Below, one piece after another: positions 15,554 through 63,191 of a stretch of DNA of 64,000 bases (within the stretch, counting starts at the first letter, position 1; the number at the start of each line of letters is the position of its first letter). Source of the stretch: Halobacteriovorax marinus SJ (GTDB lineage: Bacteria > Bdellovibrionota > Bacteriovoracia > Bacteriovoracales > Bacteriovoracaceae). The DNA lies in the NCBI RefSeq assembly GCF_000210915.2, contig NC_016620.1, positions 2,480,001-2,544,000 on the forward strand, read 5' to 3'. Both the position numbers and the translations under genes were made by a program. The notes under the pieces were generated by a model. That model was not told the origin of the DNA, did no database searches, and saw only the letters and a list, made by a program, of their open reading frames with translations.

Positions 15554-17440
15554 TTAATCACTAAGACTCTTTATGACTGAGGCGACATTAGCTATACGAA
15601 CAGGCTTAGATACAAAATCCAACATTCCAGCATCCAAACACTTTTGCCTATCTTCTTCTAATACATTGGCCGTCATTGCAACAATCTTACTTTCTTTATT
15701 ATTTTTTAAAATCTTTTTTGTAGCTGTTACTCCGTCCATGACAGGCATTTGCATATCCATAAAAATGAGTGAGTAATTTTCATTAGAACAAGCTTCTACA
15801 GCCACTTTTCCATTTTCTACTATGTCTACTTTATATCCGAGCTTAGCTAGAATCATTTCTCCAAGTTTTTGATTAACCCTATTGTCTTCAACTAGAATTA
15901 TCTTGTGAGGATACTTCTTTTCAAATCCATCATAATTGACATCTTGCTCCTCACTTTGAAATTCATTTCCTTTCTCAAATTCTAACTCAAAACTGAACTT
16001 ACTCCCTTCTCCTTTTCTACTCTCAACCTTTATCTTTCCGCCTAAAAGTTTGGCAAGCTTAGAACTAATAGATAACCCAAGTCCAGTTCCTCCAAACTTC
16101 CTTGTCACTCCCTCGTCTGCTTGAGTGAACTCTTGAAATAGTCTTGATTGCTCTTCTTCACTCATTCCAATTCCATTATCTTTTACCGAAAATAGGACTT
16201 TCACAATATTTCCGTTACACCCTGTAAGCTTAATATCTAGGAATACTTTCTCTTCATCGGGAGAGAATTTAACAGCATTACTTAGAAGATTTGTAATGAT
16301 TTGCTTTAATCTTACAATATCTGATTTTAAAAATTGAGGTATAGAATTATCAATTTTACTATGTATTGTAATCCCTTTTTCAGAAGCAATATTTGCTATT
16401 AAAGATGTTACATCTTCGACAGACTTCTTTAAGTTAAAACTAACTTTTTCTATAGAGAGTTTACCTGATTCAATTTTCGAGAAACTCAAAATATCATTAA
16501 TAATTGTTAGTAAACTGTCGCCACAACTATTAATAATAGATAGCATCTCTTCTTGAAGTGGATTTAAACTTGTATCTTTTAAAAGAGATGCCATCCCCAG
16601 AATTCCATTCATAGGAGTTCTTATTTCATGACTCATGTTTGCTAGAAATAAGGACTTCGCTTTTTCCGCGGCAAGAGCTTTATTTCTTGAATCCTCTAGC
16701 TCTCGCTGATATTTCTTTTGCTCACTAATGTCTCTTATGATTCCAGTTAAATATAAACCATCTTCAGTTCTTGCTTCTCCAACATTAATACTTATAGGTA
16801 CAACTCTTCCGTCTTTGGAAGTAAATTCCAACTCTTCAGTTTCACCAACCAACTTTGTAACATCAACCTTTAGATACTTATCAATATTAGTTCCTAATAA
16901 CTCTTTTTCACTAAGGCCAAATAACTTGATCAATTTATCGTTAACACTTTCTATTCTTCCACTAGAATCAATAACAAAGAAAGCATCTGGAGTTGTACGA
17001 AAAATAGATTGCAGCTTAGCATGATTTTTCCTATTAACCATTGCCTCTTTCTTTACACCTGTAATATCTCGAGATGAAGCATAAAGAAAAAAGTCCCCAT
17101 CTAATTCAATTCCCCTAGCATTAATTTCAACATTGAATATCTCACCATTCTTTTTCTCATGCTTTGTTTCAAAGATTTTAGGATTTTCAATTAAGTCTTT
17201 AATTACAGGTATCATATCTTCTACAGGGAAGTGTCTGTCCCAATCTTTTACATTAAGTTCATGCGCTTCCTCTAATGAGTAGCCCAGAAGATCTGCAAAA
17301 GTAGTACTGCAATAAACTACGTCACCATTTTGAGTTAGTATATGTACCCCATCGGAAGCATTCATCACAAGAAGCTTGAGGAGGGATAACTCTTTCTTGG
17401 GAGTATCATACTTACTTAAAAGATTATTCAATTTTGACAT
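15554..17440 (-). CDS. Soluble hybrid sensor histidine kinase (PAS-PAS-HisKA-HATPase-REC)
   Basis: A 628-residue cytosolic hybrid kinase with no transmembrane segment. Domains in order: PAS at about 20-135 (GVHILTQNGDVVYCS), PAS at about 145-260 (TPDAFFVIDSSGRIESVN), HisKA with the phospho-acceptor in FLANMSHEIRTPMNGILG, HATPase with the N-box (LLSNAVKFS), DNGIGMSEEE and [19 protein letters not shown], and a C-terminal receiver (VEDNRVNQK; MDMQMPVMDGV with the acceptor aspartate; KPVR). Probably a phosphorelay component whose output is encoded elsewhere. Input is intracellular, perhaps redox, a ligand or a partner protein. Confidence 0.92.
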   Translation of the reverse strand: MSKLNNLLSKYDTPKKELSLLKLLVMNASDGVHILTQNGDVVYCSTTFADLLGYSLEEAHELNVKDWDRHFPVEDMIPVIKDLIENPKIFETKHEKKNGEIFNVEINARGIELDGDFFLYASSRDITGVKKEAMVNRKNHAKLQSIFRTTPDAFFVIDSSGRIESVNDKLIKLFGLSEKELLGTNIDKYLKVDVTKLVGETEELEFTSKDGRVVPISINVGEARTEDGLYLTGIIRDISEQKKYQRELEDSRNKALAAEKAKSLFLANMSHEIRTPMNGILGMASLLKDTSLNPLQEEMLSIINSCGDSLLTIINDILSFSKIESGKLSIEKVSFNLKKSVEDVTSLIANIASEKGITIHSKIDNSIPQFLKSDIVRLKQIITNLLSNAVKFSPDEEKVFLDIKLTGCNGNIVKVLFSVKDNGIGMSEEEQSRLFQEFTQADEGVTRKFGGTGLGLSISSKLAKLLGGKIKVESRKGEGSKFSFELEFEKGNEFQSEEQDVNYDGFEKKYPHKIILVEDNRVNQKLGEMILAKLGYKVDIVENGKVAVEACSNENYSLIFMDMQMPVMDGVTATKKILKNNKESKIVAMTANVLEEDRQKCLDAGMLDFVSKPVRIANVASVIKSLSD

Positions 17441-19137: not shown

Positions 19138-20984
19138 AGCTAATAACCTCTAATAATTCTTCCATATTTATAGGCTTGAGTAGAACTTCTTCAATATTGT
19201 ATGAAGAGATATCATTCTCTGAAAGAACTTTCTCTTCATGTCCAGTTAGAAGTATAATTGGCTTCTCGCCCCCACTCTCAGAGTAGGCCTTCGCAAATTC
19301 AAAACCACTCATCTCAGGCATCGAGAGATCTGTAAGAATAACATCCACCTCAAGGCCAGTTTTTAGTGCAGCAAGAGCAGCTAAGGGTGAAGTGTAGCAA
19401 AGAACTTCTGCTCCTTGCTCCTCTACAAAATCCTTATGCATATTTGCTATTATCTCTTCATCATCAAGAATTAAAACTCTACGACCTTTTAATGTAATCT
19501 CACCAAGTCTTTGAGTAGGATTTAACTCATTGGCCAGAAGGTCTTCTCCCTCAGAGTATACAGGTAGAAAAATAATAAATTTTGCGCCCTCTCCAATTTC
19601 ACTAATGAGCTCAATACGACCATTCATCTGTTCAATAATTGAATGAATAATCGACAGCCCCATACCTGTTCCCTTATTGATGGGTTTAGTTGAAAAGTAA
19701 GGTTCATAAATCTTTTCTTTCACCTCATCTGGTATCCCTGAACCATTGTCAGAAATAATGAGTTGGACTTCATTCTTTATATGGTTAACTTGTGTTCGAA
19801 CTTTAATGTAGCCATTCTTCTTATCGATTGAGTCTCTAGAGTTAGTACAGAAATTCATAATAATCTGCTGCATCTGAGTGATATCTCCGAGAATGTCCAC
19901 TTCTTGATCAAAGGTATAATCAATTTCTATATTTGCAGGAAGTGTTGATCTCATCATATCTAAACTAGTGCGAACAACATTCACTAAATTAATCTTTGAG
20001 TACTCTACTTTCTTTTGATGTGTATAAGTTAAGATTTGGCGAATAAGCTTATCCCCTCTTTCAGAGAACTCTACAATATTTCCAAGATACTTCTTAATCT
20101 TATCTAGTTTATTGGCCTCTAAATAATGTAAGCTCTGTTCTGCAGACCCTGAAATGAGATGAAGAATATTATTGAAGTCGTGAGCAATTCCACCAGAGAG
20201 CCTACCTAGGGCCTCCATTTTCTGTGATTGATTTAGCTTAACAATCAGTTCTTCCTTCTCCTGTCTATCTCTCTCAATTCTCTCAATATCGTGAATTAAG
20301 TTCCCCTTCATTTTATTAACTGAGTAGAGAACAATATCCAATTCATCAATGGTCTCCGAAGGCTTTCTATTGAGATCAATATCCTCTTTATCTAGGTTAT
20401 CTATATTAAAGTCTTTAAGCTTAGTCGATAGAACATTTAAAGGAACCATCACATGACCTCTTAGAATATAGATCATCACAAAGGCCACAATAAAAGTTTT
20501 GATGAGATTCGCGGTAAGTATAAATAGAGCGGTATTAAGAACATGTTCAATATATGGCTCTAAATCTGTTACGACTCTATGGTTTCCAAGCTCTCTCTTC
20601 TCCTTTATAGGAGTACATTAATGGCCAAGTTTTTTCTTTCTTTTGAATAAATTGATCTTCTGTTCCTGAAGAGAGAGTCTGCCCGTCGTAGTTAATCTCA
20701 ACATAAGTAAATTCACCTGTAGAAGATAGAGAATGTAGCTGCATCTTCAGTGCTTTTAAATCAAGGTGCCATAAGTTATATGAAAGTTCAGGAACAATAA
20801 GGTTTGAAACTCTTTTTATATCGTTATCTACTTTAGAAACGTTTTGCGAATAGTCACGGTAAAGTTGGATACCAGTTGAGATCACCGTAACTAAAGAACT
20901 AATAGCTATAATTTTTAATATAATTATTTTACTTAGAGATGAGAACGGCTTCTTCTCATTACTTAAAGTTGTATTTTCATTCAT
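19130..20984 (-). pseudogene. Hybrid sensor histidine kinase split by a frameshift in a GA repeat
   Basis: One kinase gene of about 618 codons is in two frames. The 5' part (20577-20984) encodes a short cytosolic tail, a first transmembrane helix (KIIAISSLVTVISTGIQ) and a periplasmic segment. The 3' part (to 19130) continues in another frame with EPYIEHVLNTALFILTANL, a second membrane helix, HAMP-like linker, HisKA (LGRLSGGIAHDFNNILH), HATPase (DNGSGIP; GTGMGLSIIHSI) and a receiver (ILDDEEII; TDLSMPEMSG). The break falls in (CT)4 at 20591-20598; one extra dinucleotide would join the frames as KGEERELGNHRVV. This could be a real mutation, slippage-based on/off switching, or a sequence error. 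The 3' part may still be translated from an internal ATG at 20488, as given by the open frame. Confidence 0.8.
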
Positions 20985-58271: not shown

Positions 58272-58532
58272 CTACAGAGAGAGGATTCCTGGAATTGTTG
58301 AAACTTTTTGATACATCTGAATAACTTCATCAGAAGAGTTACAAACACTGGTAAAGCTAACAGAAGTATACTTGCCATTTTTAGATGGTTTTTCAGATAA
58401 TTTATTACCCTCAACCATCCCCTCTAAAGTCTTTAATTCTGTACTTGGAACAATGAATTTAAATAAATATGGCGCAGGCCAAGTATATTGGTCATCTAAT
58501 AATGCTTTAAATTTTTCTAATTCTGATATCAT
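58272..58532 (-). CDS. DUF493/YbeD-family small protein
   Basis: An 86-residue protein of the DUF493 (YbeD) ferredoxin-like-fold family: a conserved core YLFKFIVPS near residue 22 and the closing QKVSTIPGILSL. YbeD resembles the ACT/regulatory fold, and its function is unknown. AAGG precedes the ATG. It may be co-transcribed with gpsA. Confidence 0.75.
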   Translation of the reverse strand: MISELEKFKALLDDQYTWPAPYLFKFIVPSTELKTLEGMVEGNKLSEKPSKNGKYTSVSFTSVCNSSDEVIQMYQKVSTIPGILSL

Positions 58533-58656: not shown

Positions 58657-59742
58657 TTGAGACTGATTTTATTATTTGCGCTGCTATTTAACTTCTCCAA
58701 TATTCTCGGTGATGAGTATTGGCATTATAGAGAATACCTCGACAACTTCCCTATTCAAAAAACTAAGATTGCCAACTTAAAAAAACTGGTAGAAGAAGAT
58801 GCAAAAAAGTTAAACCAAAAACAAAACAAAACTGCGCAAATCGTATTTATCTATCCAGGCAAACAGATCTCTGATTATTGGAGAAGAAATATTACTGCAC
58901 TTGAAAAAAGACTTACCGACTCTGGAGTGAAGTTTAATATAAAACTTATTCCTGTTGAGACAGGTTCAAGTGTAAATGAAGAGACCAAAGATATTATAAG
59001 AGCAATTAAGAATAGGCCGGACTATTTAATCTTTACTCTAAATGTGAAAGATCATGCAAAATTAATAAATCAAATTCTATCATTCTCAAAGATTAAATTA
59101 ATCTTACTCAATATAACGACACCGCTTAAAACACTTGGGAAGAATCAGCCGTTCTTCTATGTAGGCTTTGATCATGAGGAAGGTTCTAAGAAAATTATAG
59201 AGACAATTAAAGAGCGTTACCCAGATGGAGGAGATTATATGGTGCTTTACCACTCAGAGGGCTATGTCAGTCAGATGAGAGGAGACTATATGATCAAGGA
59301 ACTTAGAGAAAGCAAAAAGTGGAATTTAAAAGCTAGATACTATACTAATGGTCAGGGTAAACGTGCAGAAATCGCAATTAATGACTTCTTTAAAAAGAAT
59401 AAGAAAGTTGATCTCATTATTTCCTGCTCAACAGATATAAGTTTAGCCGCAGCTAAATATAAAAATAAGAAAGATTTTATATTAAATGGATGGGGAGGCA
59501 GAAGCTCTGAGATTGATAATATACAGAGTAAGAAAAGTGGTATTGATTTTACTGTCATGAGAATTAATGATGATAGTGCCATTGCTGTAGCAGAAGCTAT
59601 AAAGCTTGATCTTCAAAATAAGTCCAATATGGTTCCTATGATTTTTTCAGGAGAGATGGTAATTATCGATAAAAATACCTCTAAAGAAAAACTCCGCTCT
59701 TTAGAGAAAAGGGCCTTTAGGTATTCTAATGAAGAAATCTAA
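58657..59742 (+). CDS. luxP: LuxP-type autoinducer-2 binding protein
   Basis: A periplasmic binding protein of 361 residues with signal MRLILLFALLFNFSNILG. It is clearly LuxP-like across its length: YPGKQISDYW, LNITTP, QPFFYVGFDHEEGS, LYHSEGYVSQMRGDYM, CSTDIS, NGWGGRSSE and VMRINDDSAIAVAEAIK. All residues I know to contact borated AI-2 in Vibrio LuxP are conserved in place: Gln70, Ser72, Trp75, Asn152, Arg208, Ser258-Thr259-Asp260, Trp279 and Arg302 (LuxP 77, 79, 82, 159, 215, 265-267, 289, 310). The start is TTG with AAGGA six bases upstream. It overlaps the kinase gene by 14 bases, as luxP precedes luxQ. Confidence 0.93.
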   Translation: MRLILLFALLFNFSNILGDEYWHYREYLDNFPIQKTKIANLKKLVEEDAKKLNQKQNKTAQIVFIYPGKQISDYWRRNITALEKRLTDSGVKFNIKLIPVETGSSVNEETKDIIRAIKNRPDYLIFTLNVKDHAKLINQILSFSKIKLILLNITTPLKTLGKNQPFFYVGFDHEEGSKKIIETIKERYPDGGDYMVLYHSEGYVSQMRGDYMIKELRESKKWNLKARYYTNGQGKRAEIAINDFFKKNKKVDLIISCSTDISLAAAKYKNKKDFILNGWGGRSSEIDNIQSKKSGIDFTVMRINDDSAIAVAEAIKLDLQNKSNMVPMIFSGEMVIIDKNTSKEKLRSLEKRAFRYSNEEI

Positions 59743-61831
59743 AGATATTAAAATTTCTTATCTCTTAGGAATTATCATTATTGTCATAGTAACCCTAGTG
59801 ACGATTCCTCTTTTCTATAATCAATTCAACTCCTCTATGCTCCTACTTAAAGATAAAACGATTGATGACTTTAAGGATGAAGAGAAGTTAACGGAAGTAT
59901 TTATAACATCTCAACTAGAGGCCAAGAGAGTTCAGTTGCGAGAAGCTGCGAATAATTTTGAATTAAGAAAATTATTAGAGTCAAAGGGAAGTAGTGCCTT
60001 AACGAACGTTCTTAAGAAGGTAGTCACATCCCCTATTGACGCGGACTTTATTTTTCTATCATATGATGGGAGTGAGCAAATTACAGATGTTAGTCTCAAT
60101 ATTTTAAATACGAAGCAAATCATAAATGATTACTTAGAAAATCATTCCATTGAAAGAGACTTTGAACTCTATACGACAAAGACCTCTAACCTTATCGCAT
60201 TTCTAAAAGAAGACATCATATCAAGAAAGACAGGTCGTATTCTTGCAACTATGCATACAGGATATATTCTAAATAATAGAGCAAGTTTCTTTAACAACTT
60301 ATCTCTTAAAGTTTTAAAGACTAATTTCTACTTTATTATTAATGACAATGTTTATTCTAGTTCAGGAGTCATGAGCGTTGATGACGCAAAGGCCATTACT
60401 TCTGCTAAAGTAGGAAGCTTAATTCAATCAAATAAGAAATTATTCTATATAACAAAAGTAAAACTTGATGATATTTACAGTATCAAGGTCGCTTTTGAAA
60501 CAAGCTCCAACTACGTTAAAAATCTTAAAAGTTCTTATATATACAACTTTCTGATTACAGTTCTAACCTCCATCTTACTTTGTATTATAGCTATCTATAT
60601 CGCGAATAGATTGATCACTCCTCCATTAGAACATATCGTGAATACTATTAGTTTACTAATGATTCGAAACTTAAGGTCGACACCAAGAAGAAGTTTTATT
60701 AGAGAGTTTAATTTAATAGAAGATAACTTCATCTCCGTCTTTGATAAGTTTCAGCAAAAGAAGTCTCAACTTGCAAGTTTTGTGAGTTCTTCACCAATTT
60801 CAATTTTGATTTTAGATTACAAAGGTAAGATTATTCAAACTAATGATGCGAGTATAAACCTATTTGAGATCAGTGATAAGAATGGAAATATTTTAAAAGA
60901 TAGCGCTCTAAAAAATTGCGATGACTTCAAAGAGATGCTCTCAACAATAAAAGATCGTAAGAAAATTTTTGAAGATGAATTCAACTTTAAGTCAGGTGAA
61001 AAGTGGAAGAATACTCTTTGGACAATTCACCAAGACAATAAAGAGAATTATATATTCATTCAATGTGTAGACAATACTGAAAAGCTTGAAACTCAATCTA
61101 TCATTGAGGCCCAAAGATCAAAGTCAGTTCACAATCAAAAACTTGCTGCCATTGGGGAGATTGCAAGTAGTGTCGCTCATGAAATTAATAATCCAATGGG
61201 AATCGTATCACTCTCTCTAACAATGCTTGAAAACGAGCTTGAACAACTAGAGATCAACAGTGAAAAGAAAAAAGAGAATATAAGAAAGTCTATTTCCAAT
61301 ATTGAAAACTCTGTTGAGAGAACATCGCAGATCATCTCAAACTTACTGGATTTCTCTAGAGAAGGAAGTAAAGACCGCTTAGAGTCTAAAAACCTAGACC
61401 TCGTTTTAAATAAAACCCTTCTCTTTATTGAAGAGAAATTAAAAAAGAATAAGATTACTCTCAATACGCAGGGACTAGATAAAGATATAAATATTTACAT
61501 AAAGGAAACACAATTCTCTCAAATACTTGTCAATCTCTTCAATAACTCAATTGATTCCCTAATTGGACAGGAGCGCAGAGAGATTGACCTCTCAACAAGA
61601 GTTGAAGACACAACTTGCTACCTTCACTTTAAAGACACCGGAAGAGGAATACCAAAAGAGCTGGAAGAGAAAATCTTCTCGCCATTTTTTACCACAAAAT
61701 CAGTTGGTAGTGGAACAGGCCTTGGACTTAGTATTTCCAAAAACTTATTACTTGAAATGTCTGGTGATATAAAACTTGAGAGAGAAGATTCAGGAGCTCA
61801 CTTTATTGTGAGCATCCCTATAAAAAATTAA
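59729..61831 (+). CDS. LuxQ-like sensor histidine kinase lacking a receiver domain
   Basis: A 700-residue membrane kinase, probable partner of LuxP. Order: first helix (11-30), a periplasmic sensor domain (about 31-268) in the place of the LuxQ sensor, second helix (272-292), a linker, PAS (about 350-450, [19 protein letters not shown]), HisKA with His484 ([14 protein letters not shown]), and HATPase with [16 protein letters not shown] and [13 protein letters not shown], ending at residue 700. Vibrio LuxQ is longer because a receiver follows; here it is absent, so phosphate must go to a separate regulator, not seen in this window. It shares 14 bases with luxP, showing coupling. Confidence 0.87.
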
Positions 61832-62392
61832 TTAGAACTTGACGAGATTACCATCGAGATCATGTATCTCAGGAGTTTTCCCGTGAGCATATCTCAAGAT
61901 GTCTATCACTTCTCTAGCAGAACCAATTCCAGACATAGATGTGATATAGTCCGCTTTCTCTCTCACCTCTAAAGATGCACCAGGAACAGTTGCTGAAAAA
62001 CCACTGGCCATCATTAGTGGAATATCAAAGAACTCATCTCCCATGTAGAGAATTTCTTCTCTTTCATATCCCTGTGCAAGAAGCTCTTTAAAAGACTCTC
62101 TCTTATCCTCATTACCGTAGTAAACAAAATCAAGTTTTAAGTTCTCTTTAAATCTTTTAAGTACACTTAGAGAGTCTCCACCAGTGATAACTCCAACTTT
62201 AAAACCAAAGCTCTTTAGCATCTTAAGTCCATAACCATCACGTGTATCGGTGAATCGATTCCACGCCATTTCATCCCCACTGTACCAAACTTTTCCATCA
62301 GTTAAGATTCCATCAACATCAAATGCAACGACTTTGATTTTGAGAAGTTTTTCTTCAAATTTCTTAGCAACTTCTTTTAGATTAATTTCCAT
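61832..62392 (-). CDS. kdsC: 3-deoxy-D-manno-octulosonate 8-phosphate phosphatase
   Basis: Small C0-type HAD phosphatase of Kdo (lipopolysaccharide core) synthesis, 186 residues. Motif I is VVAFDVDGILTDG, followed by RDGYGLKMLKSFGFKVGVITGG (motif II threonine) and MGDEFFDIPLMMASGFSATV. I use the ATG at 62392 with AAGGA at good spacing; a TTG at 62395 is possible. It overlaps the end of kdsA, forming a pyrG-kdsA-kdsC unit. Confidence 0.92.
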   Translation of the reverse strand: MEINLKEVAKKFEEKLLKIKVVAFDVDGILTDGKVWYSGDEMAWNRFTDTRDGYGLKMLKSFGFKVGVITGGDSLSVLKRFKENLKLDFVYYGNEDKRESFKELLAQGYEREEILYMGDEFFDIPLMMASGFSATVPGASLEVREKADYITSMSGIGSAREVIDILRYAHGKTPEIHDLDGNLVKF

Positions 62393-63191
62393 CAACTACA
62401 TCCTTAATTTGTATTAGCTTCCTTACAATGCTCTGAACTTTATCAATAGGTAGAGCCGTTGCCGAGTCAGAGAGTGCTTTTTCAGGGTTTGGATGACACT
62501 CCATAAAAATCCCGTCAGCTCCAGCAGCAACTGCTGCTTTGGCCAATGTAAATATCTGCTCTCTCTTCCCACCTGTCTGAGTACCTAAACCACCAGGTCT
62601 TTGTACGCAATGAGTAGCATCATGAATAGTCCTTACACCAAAGCTTTTCATAATCTGAAAGCTTGCCATATCTACGACAAGATTATTATATCCAAAGCTT
62701 GTCCCTCTCTCAGTAAGAAGAATCTTATCTTTTGAGAGGAAGTTGAGCGCTTTATCTACAATATTCTTTGTCTCTTCCGGGCTTAGGAATTGCCCCTTCT
62801 TCACTTTTAATTGTCCATTATATTTTGCACAAGCTTCTGCACCGGCCAAGATCATATCTGTCTGTCGACAAAGAAATGCTGGAACTTGTAATGTTTGAAC
62901 GACGCTTGCAATTTTCTCAGCTTGTTCAGGATGATGAAAGTCCGTAATTGTTGGAAGAGAATAAGTCTTCGCAACTTTCTCTAAAATCTTTAGACCGTCA
63001 TCGATCCCTGGTCCTCTATAAGAATCAATAGATGATCTATTGGCCTTATCGAAACTTCCTTTAAAGTGTAACTGAATTCTCCCCTCAAACTCTTTGAGGT
63101 CTTCAACTAACTTACCTGCAATATCCATTGCTAAAGTTTCACTTTCTAGAACACAAGGTCCAATAAAGAAGTCCATTTTTTTATTTTCCAT
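62382..63191 (-). CDS. kdsA: 3-deoxy-D-manno-octulosonate 8-phosphate synthase
   Basis: Condenses arabinose-5-phosphate and PEP in Kdo synthesis. About 269 residues (usual 270-285). It shows FFIGPCVLESETLAMDIA, HFKGSFDKANRSSIDSYRGPG, QVPAFLCRQTDMILA, KKGQFLSPEETKNI, LTERGTSFGYNNLVVDM, THCVQRPGGLG and FMECHPNPEKALSD. The frame is open further upstream inside pyrG, but the ATG at 63191 (or 63176) gives the normal N-terminus. The first eleven bases overlap the pyrG stop, a coupled arrangement. Confidence 0.93.
   Translation of the reverse strand: MENKKMDFFIGPCVLESETLAMDIAGKLVEDLKEFEGRIQLHFKGSFDKANRSSIDSYRGPGIDDGLKILEKVAKTYSLPTITDFHHPEQAEKIASVVQTLQVPAFLCRQTDMILAGAEACAKYNGQLKVKKGQFLSPEETKNIVDKALNFLSKDKILLTERGTSFGYNNLVVDMASFQIMKSFGVRTIHDATHCVQRPGGLGTQTGGKREQIFTLAKAAVAAGADGIFMECHPNPEKALSDSATALPIDKVQSIVRKLIQIKDVVDGN

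Follow-up and report, generated by a model that had tools for sequence, protein, structure and literature searches.

A putative LuxP-LuxQ-type autoinducer-2 receptor with a receiver-less transmitter of separate lineage in Halobacteriovorax marinus SJ

In the window analysed here, a stretch of 64,000 nucleotides of the Halobacteriovorax marinus SJ chromosome, a luxP-like gene overlaps the gene of a LuxQ-like histidine kinase that has no receiver domain. We consider it probable that the two genes form an AI-2 receptor with a non-hybrid, lineage-specific transmitter, operating without a LuxU/LuxO relay and on foreign AI-2. LuxP would bind borated AI-2 in the periplasm and dock on the membrane kinase at its LuxQ-type periplasmic domain, from which the signal would run via the membrane helices and a PAS domain to the non-hybrid HisKA-HATPase transmitter. 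Since this transmitter has no receiver, the kinase would work as a one-step sensor kinase, and because of its HExxN motif probably as a phosphatase too, exchanging phosphate with a separate response regulator whose gene lies elsewhere. The AI-2 sensory module would have been joined to a PAS-kinase lineage of Halobacteriovorax and a second genus, here called g3.

The gene for the predicted AI-2-binding periplasmic protein LuxP (58657-59742, forward strand) starts with TTG and encodes 361 amino acids; that of the kinase (59729-61831, forward), delimited by its open reading frame and by domain searches, starts with ATG and encodes 700. The pair lies between a DUF493 gene on the left (58272-58532, reverse; PF04359) and, on the right, the gene of a KdsC-like HAD phosphatase (kdsC, 61832-62395, reverse; Pfam HAD hydrolase), which by synteny are the borders of the insertion site. 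The same arrangement is found in all five Halobacteriovorax genomes, always with a receiver-less kinase; the coupling of kinase and luxP proposed in the initial annotation is supported. The 14-base overlap of the two genes (59729-59742, forward), also noted there, is confirmed by their coordinates; among the relatives compared, G044 and G045 share these 14 bases, and the overlap is 1-4 bases in G043 and G046. Overlapping luxP and kinase genes are usual in Vibrio as well (-4/-1), and the overlap, taken in the initial annotation to argue for a single unit, is thus ordinary. In at least nine other genomes kdsC and DUF493 stand side by side, and in several genera the gap between them holds kilobase-sized, differing inserts (L194, L195, L197, L201, L204, L222); this gap appears to take up insertions repeatedly. 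The same window contains two further kinases that are hybrids, with HATPase and then receiver in one frame (15572-16321 and 19142-20242, both reverse).

The window LuxP matches the solved V. harveyi LuxP at an E-value of about 1e-82 over residues 20-358 (phmmer), with 41% identity in the alignment, and Peripla_BP_4 is found at E 8e-18 (Pfam). Its N-terminus, MRLILLFALLFNFSNILG, is hydrophobic and resembles a signal peptide, while staying under the hydropathy threshold used. The AI-2/borate contacts, which we take to be those of structure 1JX6 (a single numbering offset fits all eight), were mapped through the alignment to the span 58864-59562 (forward): Q70, S72, W75, N152, R208, T259, W279 and R302, corresponding to V. 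harveyi Q77, S79, W82, N159, R215, T266, W289 and R310. All eight are identical across the seven aligned proteins (the window LuxP, five family relatives and V. harveyi LuxP), and all fall inside the 76 invariant columns among 331 gapless ones (hypergeometric P 6e-6 for falling in the invariant set under random placement in gapless columns). Judged by sequence, the LuxP assignment is genuine, far beyond chance, and the conserved contacts suggest that the protein binds AI-2. In the LuxP tree the window protein stands outside the Vibrionaceae-type clade (support 100/99), and recent transfer of luxP from Vibrio is therefore unlikely.

The kinase gene has the setting and layout expected of luxQ: it adjoins luxP, and two membrane segments (residues 11-29, 59759-59815, and residues 274-292, 60548-60604, both forward; Kyte-Doolittle scan) flank a periplasmic tandem sensor domain (residues about 31-272; 59819-60544, forward). 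We modelled residues 31-285 with AlphaFold2 (pLDDT 84), using an alignment that includes LuxQ rows, so that the model is not wholly independent of them. The five solved structures closest to it are LuxQ periplasmic domains from V. cholerae and V. harveyi (Foldseek, E 3e-10), with VIA-align Z-scores of 19.2-17.3 against 14.5 for the next structure. Identity to LuxQ in this region is about 13-17%. The Pfam LuxQ-periplasm family (PF09308) was not reached by the window kinase itself in the Pfam search; it was reached by one orthologue in the genus (E 5e-11) and by the more distant family member in G050 (1e-10). By its model, the sensor is of the LuxQ-type periplasmic fold, in line with the LuxQ-like character first ascribed to it; a domain belonging to an unrelated ligand class, raised at the same time as the contrary outcome, did not emerge, with LuxQ on top in both Foldseek and VIA-align. 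Fold and conserved contacts together lead us to infer that LuxP docks on this domain.

The cytosolic part begins with a PAS domain (residues about 347-452; 60767-61084, forward), for which the PAS_8 match is weak in the window protein and significant in orthologues (E 1e-4). It is followed by HisKA (residues 476-546; 61154-61366, forward; PF00512, E 2e-12), with the phospho-acceptor His484 (codon 61178-61180) and the HExxN motif, invariant in the genus, and by HATPase_c (residues 593-699 of 700; 61505-61825, forward; PF02518, E 2e-20), which lies at the protein end and has its N, G1, F and G2 boxes intact. The domain search that had been suggested for this kinase thus recovers both transmitter domains firmly, PAS weakly, and the LuxQ periplasmic family only through the relatives named above. 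Pfam finds no Response_reg in the 700 residues; the protein ends 33 residues beyond the G2 box (GTGLGL), and in the intact Vibrionaceae LuxQs surveyed about 178-202 residues, the receiver, lie past that box. None of the five genus genomes has a receiver at the kinase end. In all five the protein stops at an identical position and kdsC follows, and the kinase is therefore not the product of a frameshift or truncation. Its stop codon (61829-61831) abuts the stop end of the convergent kdsC, which leaves no receiver in frame or adjacent downstream. The initial annotation, which had the protein stop after the HATPase domain at residue 700 and had named a downstream in-frame receiver as what would speak against it, was correct here.

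Whether the transmitter itself descends from a LuxQ is a separate matter. Had a LuxQ-type hybrid kinase merely shed its C-terminal receiver, the domain order up to HATPase would be the same, as is seen, and the NCBIfam model LuxQ_Vibrio does align along residues 8-699 (E 1e-34; 119.6 bits, with the cut-off of 1200 not reached). We nevertheless regard this origin as very improbable, because the HisKA-HATPase core scores far higher against non-hybrid kinases of its own genome (up to 132 bits) and a short g3 kinase (139 bits) than against the cores of Vibrio LuxQ, none of which exceeds 80 bits. The core tree separates the two lineages: Vibrio LuxQ cores group with hybrid cores, those of the H. 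marinus genome included (support 100/100), with the Halobacteriovorax cores apart, and the window core forms a clade with the short kinases of g3 (98/97). A joint clade of the window core and Vibrio LuxQ was rejected by the AU test in a tree with more rows (dlnL 111, p-AU 1e-80), as was the joining of Halobacteriovorax and Vibrio LuxQ cores in an earlier tree with fewer rows. Receiver loss from a Vibrio-type LuxQ is rejected on the core tree and the AU test. Of the description of this protein as a LuxQ minus its receiver, the sensor and the missing receiver stand; the transmitter as a whole belongs to another lineage, with an orthologue in g3. That orthologue occupies the DUF493-kdsC gap of the two g3 genomes (G003 and G002) as a cytosolic PAS kinase of 355-371 residues, and luxP, membrane segments and a LuxQ sensor are all absent from g3 at this site. 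In searches with the G003 kinase, the five Halobacteriovorax kinases come first (108-152 bits, four of them at 134 or more), against 97 bits or less for the paralogues in the window genome. Among 126 genomes of the order, matches to the g3 kinase at E 1e-30 or better are confined to g3 and the five genus kinases, one each. Synteny and core relationship combined thus give the C-terminal half of the window kinase a sensorless syntenic orthologue; the AI-2 sensory module appears, from sequence comparison, to sit on a lineage-specific PAS kinase known only from Halobacteriovorax and g3. The history may also have run the other way, with the same mechanism as its outcome: an ancestor possessed LuxP, the LuxQ sensor and the core, and g3 lost the sensory half and kept a decaying cytosolic kinase. 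We find this variant quite possible. The long branch of the g3 kinases, and NNG instead of DTG at the G1 box of both, fit decay; against it, the site is empty in most other genera, g3 has no trace of luxP, and the rooting of the core tree cannot tell gain from loss. Both short kinases (L199:3818-4885, forward; L222:6079-7194, reverse) keep the acceptor His and have a changed G2 box; they are possibly phosphatase-only or decaying, and the loss of the G1-box Asp fits decay as well as repurposing.

The window kinase most likely passes phosphate directly, His to Asp, to a regulator encoded at an unlinked site. In the genome (a chromosome of 3,435,933 bases and one further contig of 1,973 bases) 56 receivers were matched. 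About 33 of them have no kinase within 4 kb and could serve as partners, and 16 of the 31 histidine kinases have no receiver gene within that distance, so that an orphan kinase is ordinary in this genome. No regulator adjoins luxPQ in any of the five genus genomes. One-step transfer to a putative unlinked regulator would be the simplest reading, since a receiver-less kinase needs no Hpt. A longer chain, from the kinase to an unlinked receiver, then to a LuxU-like Hpt and a LuxO-like sigma-54 regulator, could draw on the five Hpt domains over the cut-off, one of them a lone Hpt of 113 amino acids, and on two NtrC-type response regulators. We think such a chain unlikely: direct passage of phosphate from a receiver-less kinase to an Hpt is not expected, and no LuxO equivalog was found in the genome, where the two NtrC-type regulators score 234 and 322 bits against a cut-off of 800. 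This agrees with the prediction in the initial annotation that output must use something other than LuxU/LuxO, and the orphan regulators and Hpt proteins it proposed to look for are those just counted; its supporting argument, the absence of luxU and luxO from the window, is weak, given that PMC2561040 found luxS, luxPQ and luxUO apart from one another in every strain it examined. An NtrC-type candidate that we tested as partner proved nearly universal in the order and common in relatives without luxPQ, so its distribution is no pointer to luxPQ. At L140 (G000:C1:1278835-1284072), a single hybrid kinase lies in a cluster of receiver-domain genes; these number six or seven, and one carries ankyrin repeats. 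The nature of the input can be doubted too, since LuxP falls in the sugar-binding Peripla_BP_4 superfamily: its ligand might be a sugar or some other compound, and the two proteins might form a nutrient sensor. This is quite unlikely in our view, as the eight AI-2 contacts are all invariant, the best matches are LuxP proteins with sugar-binding proteins appearing only at E 0.01-0.2, and the partner kinase carries the LuxQ sensor fold.

Halobacteriovorax are marine obligate predators. A search for luxS gave no match in the H. marinus genome or across 129 genomes of the order, with control genomes positive, and this absence is the more telling fact. Because luxS was not found in the order, the AI-2 sensed by the proposed receptor is most likely made by other bacteria, with prey such as vibrios a plausible source. 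Routes to AI-2 that do not need LuxS have been proposed, two of which are mentioned in PMC7584622, so the absence of luxS is no strict proof that the organism makes no AI-2 of its own. The genomic evidence suggests that Halobacteriovorax probably listens to AI-2 from other bacteria, perhaps its prey, and we infer an ecological use of this sensing. More speculatively, and with some doubt, the LuxP/LuxQ sensory half may be a portable AI-2 cassette on a PAS kinase confined to the genus and g3, through which a luxS-less obligate predator would read prey AI-2 in one step, perhaps inside the prey periplasm. The only other LuxP in the order is in G050, a member of another genus, and the kinase there is also receiver-less; the kinase core of this second LuxP-kinase pair (L023:6521-10726) is distant, and a porin-like gene follows the pair after 28 bases.

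We scanned 84,980 species for LuxP and obtained 289 relatives, of which the best 80 were used to survey partners. Among these, the intact Vibrionaceae partners are hybrid kinases, and receiver-less partner kinases occur in one Campylobacteraceae and one Thalassobaculaceae MAG. An epsilonproteobacterial MAG (L037:11050-12990) and Neptuniibacter (L092:3502-6558) have luxP followed by a LuxQ-periplasm/PAS protein ending in GGDEF and GGDEF-EAL, respectively, so that in both LuxP-type AI-2 sensing is apparently wired straight to c-di-GMP. In Oceanimonas/Oceanisphaera (L052:7239-9080, L083:2905-4815, L053:2633-4228, L102:3001-3954) the LuxQ-like partners have the sensor and no output domain, ending after PAS or soon past the second membrane segment, just before glmS. 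Three large kinases flank luxP in Desulfocapsa (L045:7024-18154), one of them with LuxQ-periplasm, receiver and Hpt. LuxS is also missing from the genomes of Thalassobaculaceae, Neptuniibacter and Desulfocapsa, all three of them MAGs and perhaps incomplete. The LuxP sensory pair is thus found on hybrid kinases, receiver-less kinases of more than one core type, diguanylate cyclases and GGDEF-EAL proteins. If our reading is right, LuxP-based AI-2 sensing is not tied to the Vibrio relay, and a predator without luxS has retained a conserved AI-2 receptor, so that eavesdropping on prey can be put to a direct test.

Listeners that combine LuxP with varied partners had already been reported, this species included by its LuxP: PMC11069264 lists Bacteriovorax marinus SJ in its class of "AI-2 listeners", which have LuxP without LuxS, and gives no LuxQ, kinase architecture or locus for them. 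LuxP had been stated to be present only in Vibrio (PMC7584622), and two Bdellovibrionota genome papers (PMC4511183, PMC11656739) do not mention quorum, autoinducer, Lux or histidine kinase. In the literature searched, which takes in few of the subscription journals, we came upon no account of the kinase, of its differing core or of the locus. The transmitter resembles non-hybrid, one-step sensor kinases of the AtoS/NtrB type, AtoS being its best NCBIfam match (E 1e-45; 156 bits, under the 646-bit cut-off); it differs in its LuxQ-type sensor and in having no AtoC-type regulator adjoining. The short g3 kinase shares the site, the PAS-HisKA-HATPase module, the orientation divergent from DUF493 and the clade, and differs by lacking luxP, membrane segments and LuxQ sensor and by the replaced G1-box Asp. 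With the LuxPQ systems of V. harveyi and V. cholerae (PDB 1ZHH, 2HJ9, 3C38) the window pair has in common a LuxP with all AI-2 contacts, the LuxQ-type periplasmic fold, the overlap of luxP and kinase gene, the cytosolic PAS and HisKA-HATPase; unlike them, its kinase lacks a receiver and has a core of another lineage, in a genome without a LuxO equivalog or luxS match. It is also similar to the LuxP operons with varied PAS-bearing partners in the luxS-negative Neptuniibacter MED92, Marinomonas MED121 and Desulfuromonas acetoxidans, for which sensing of other species' AI-2 was proposed (PMC2561040). The partner is a PAS/AAA/DNA-binding regulator in Marinomonas (PMC2561040) and a GGDEF-EAL protein in the Neptuniibacter MAG, whereas in the window it is a receiver-less histidine kinase.
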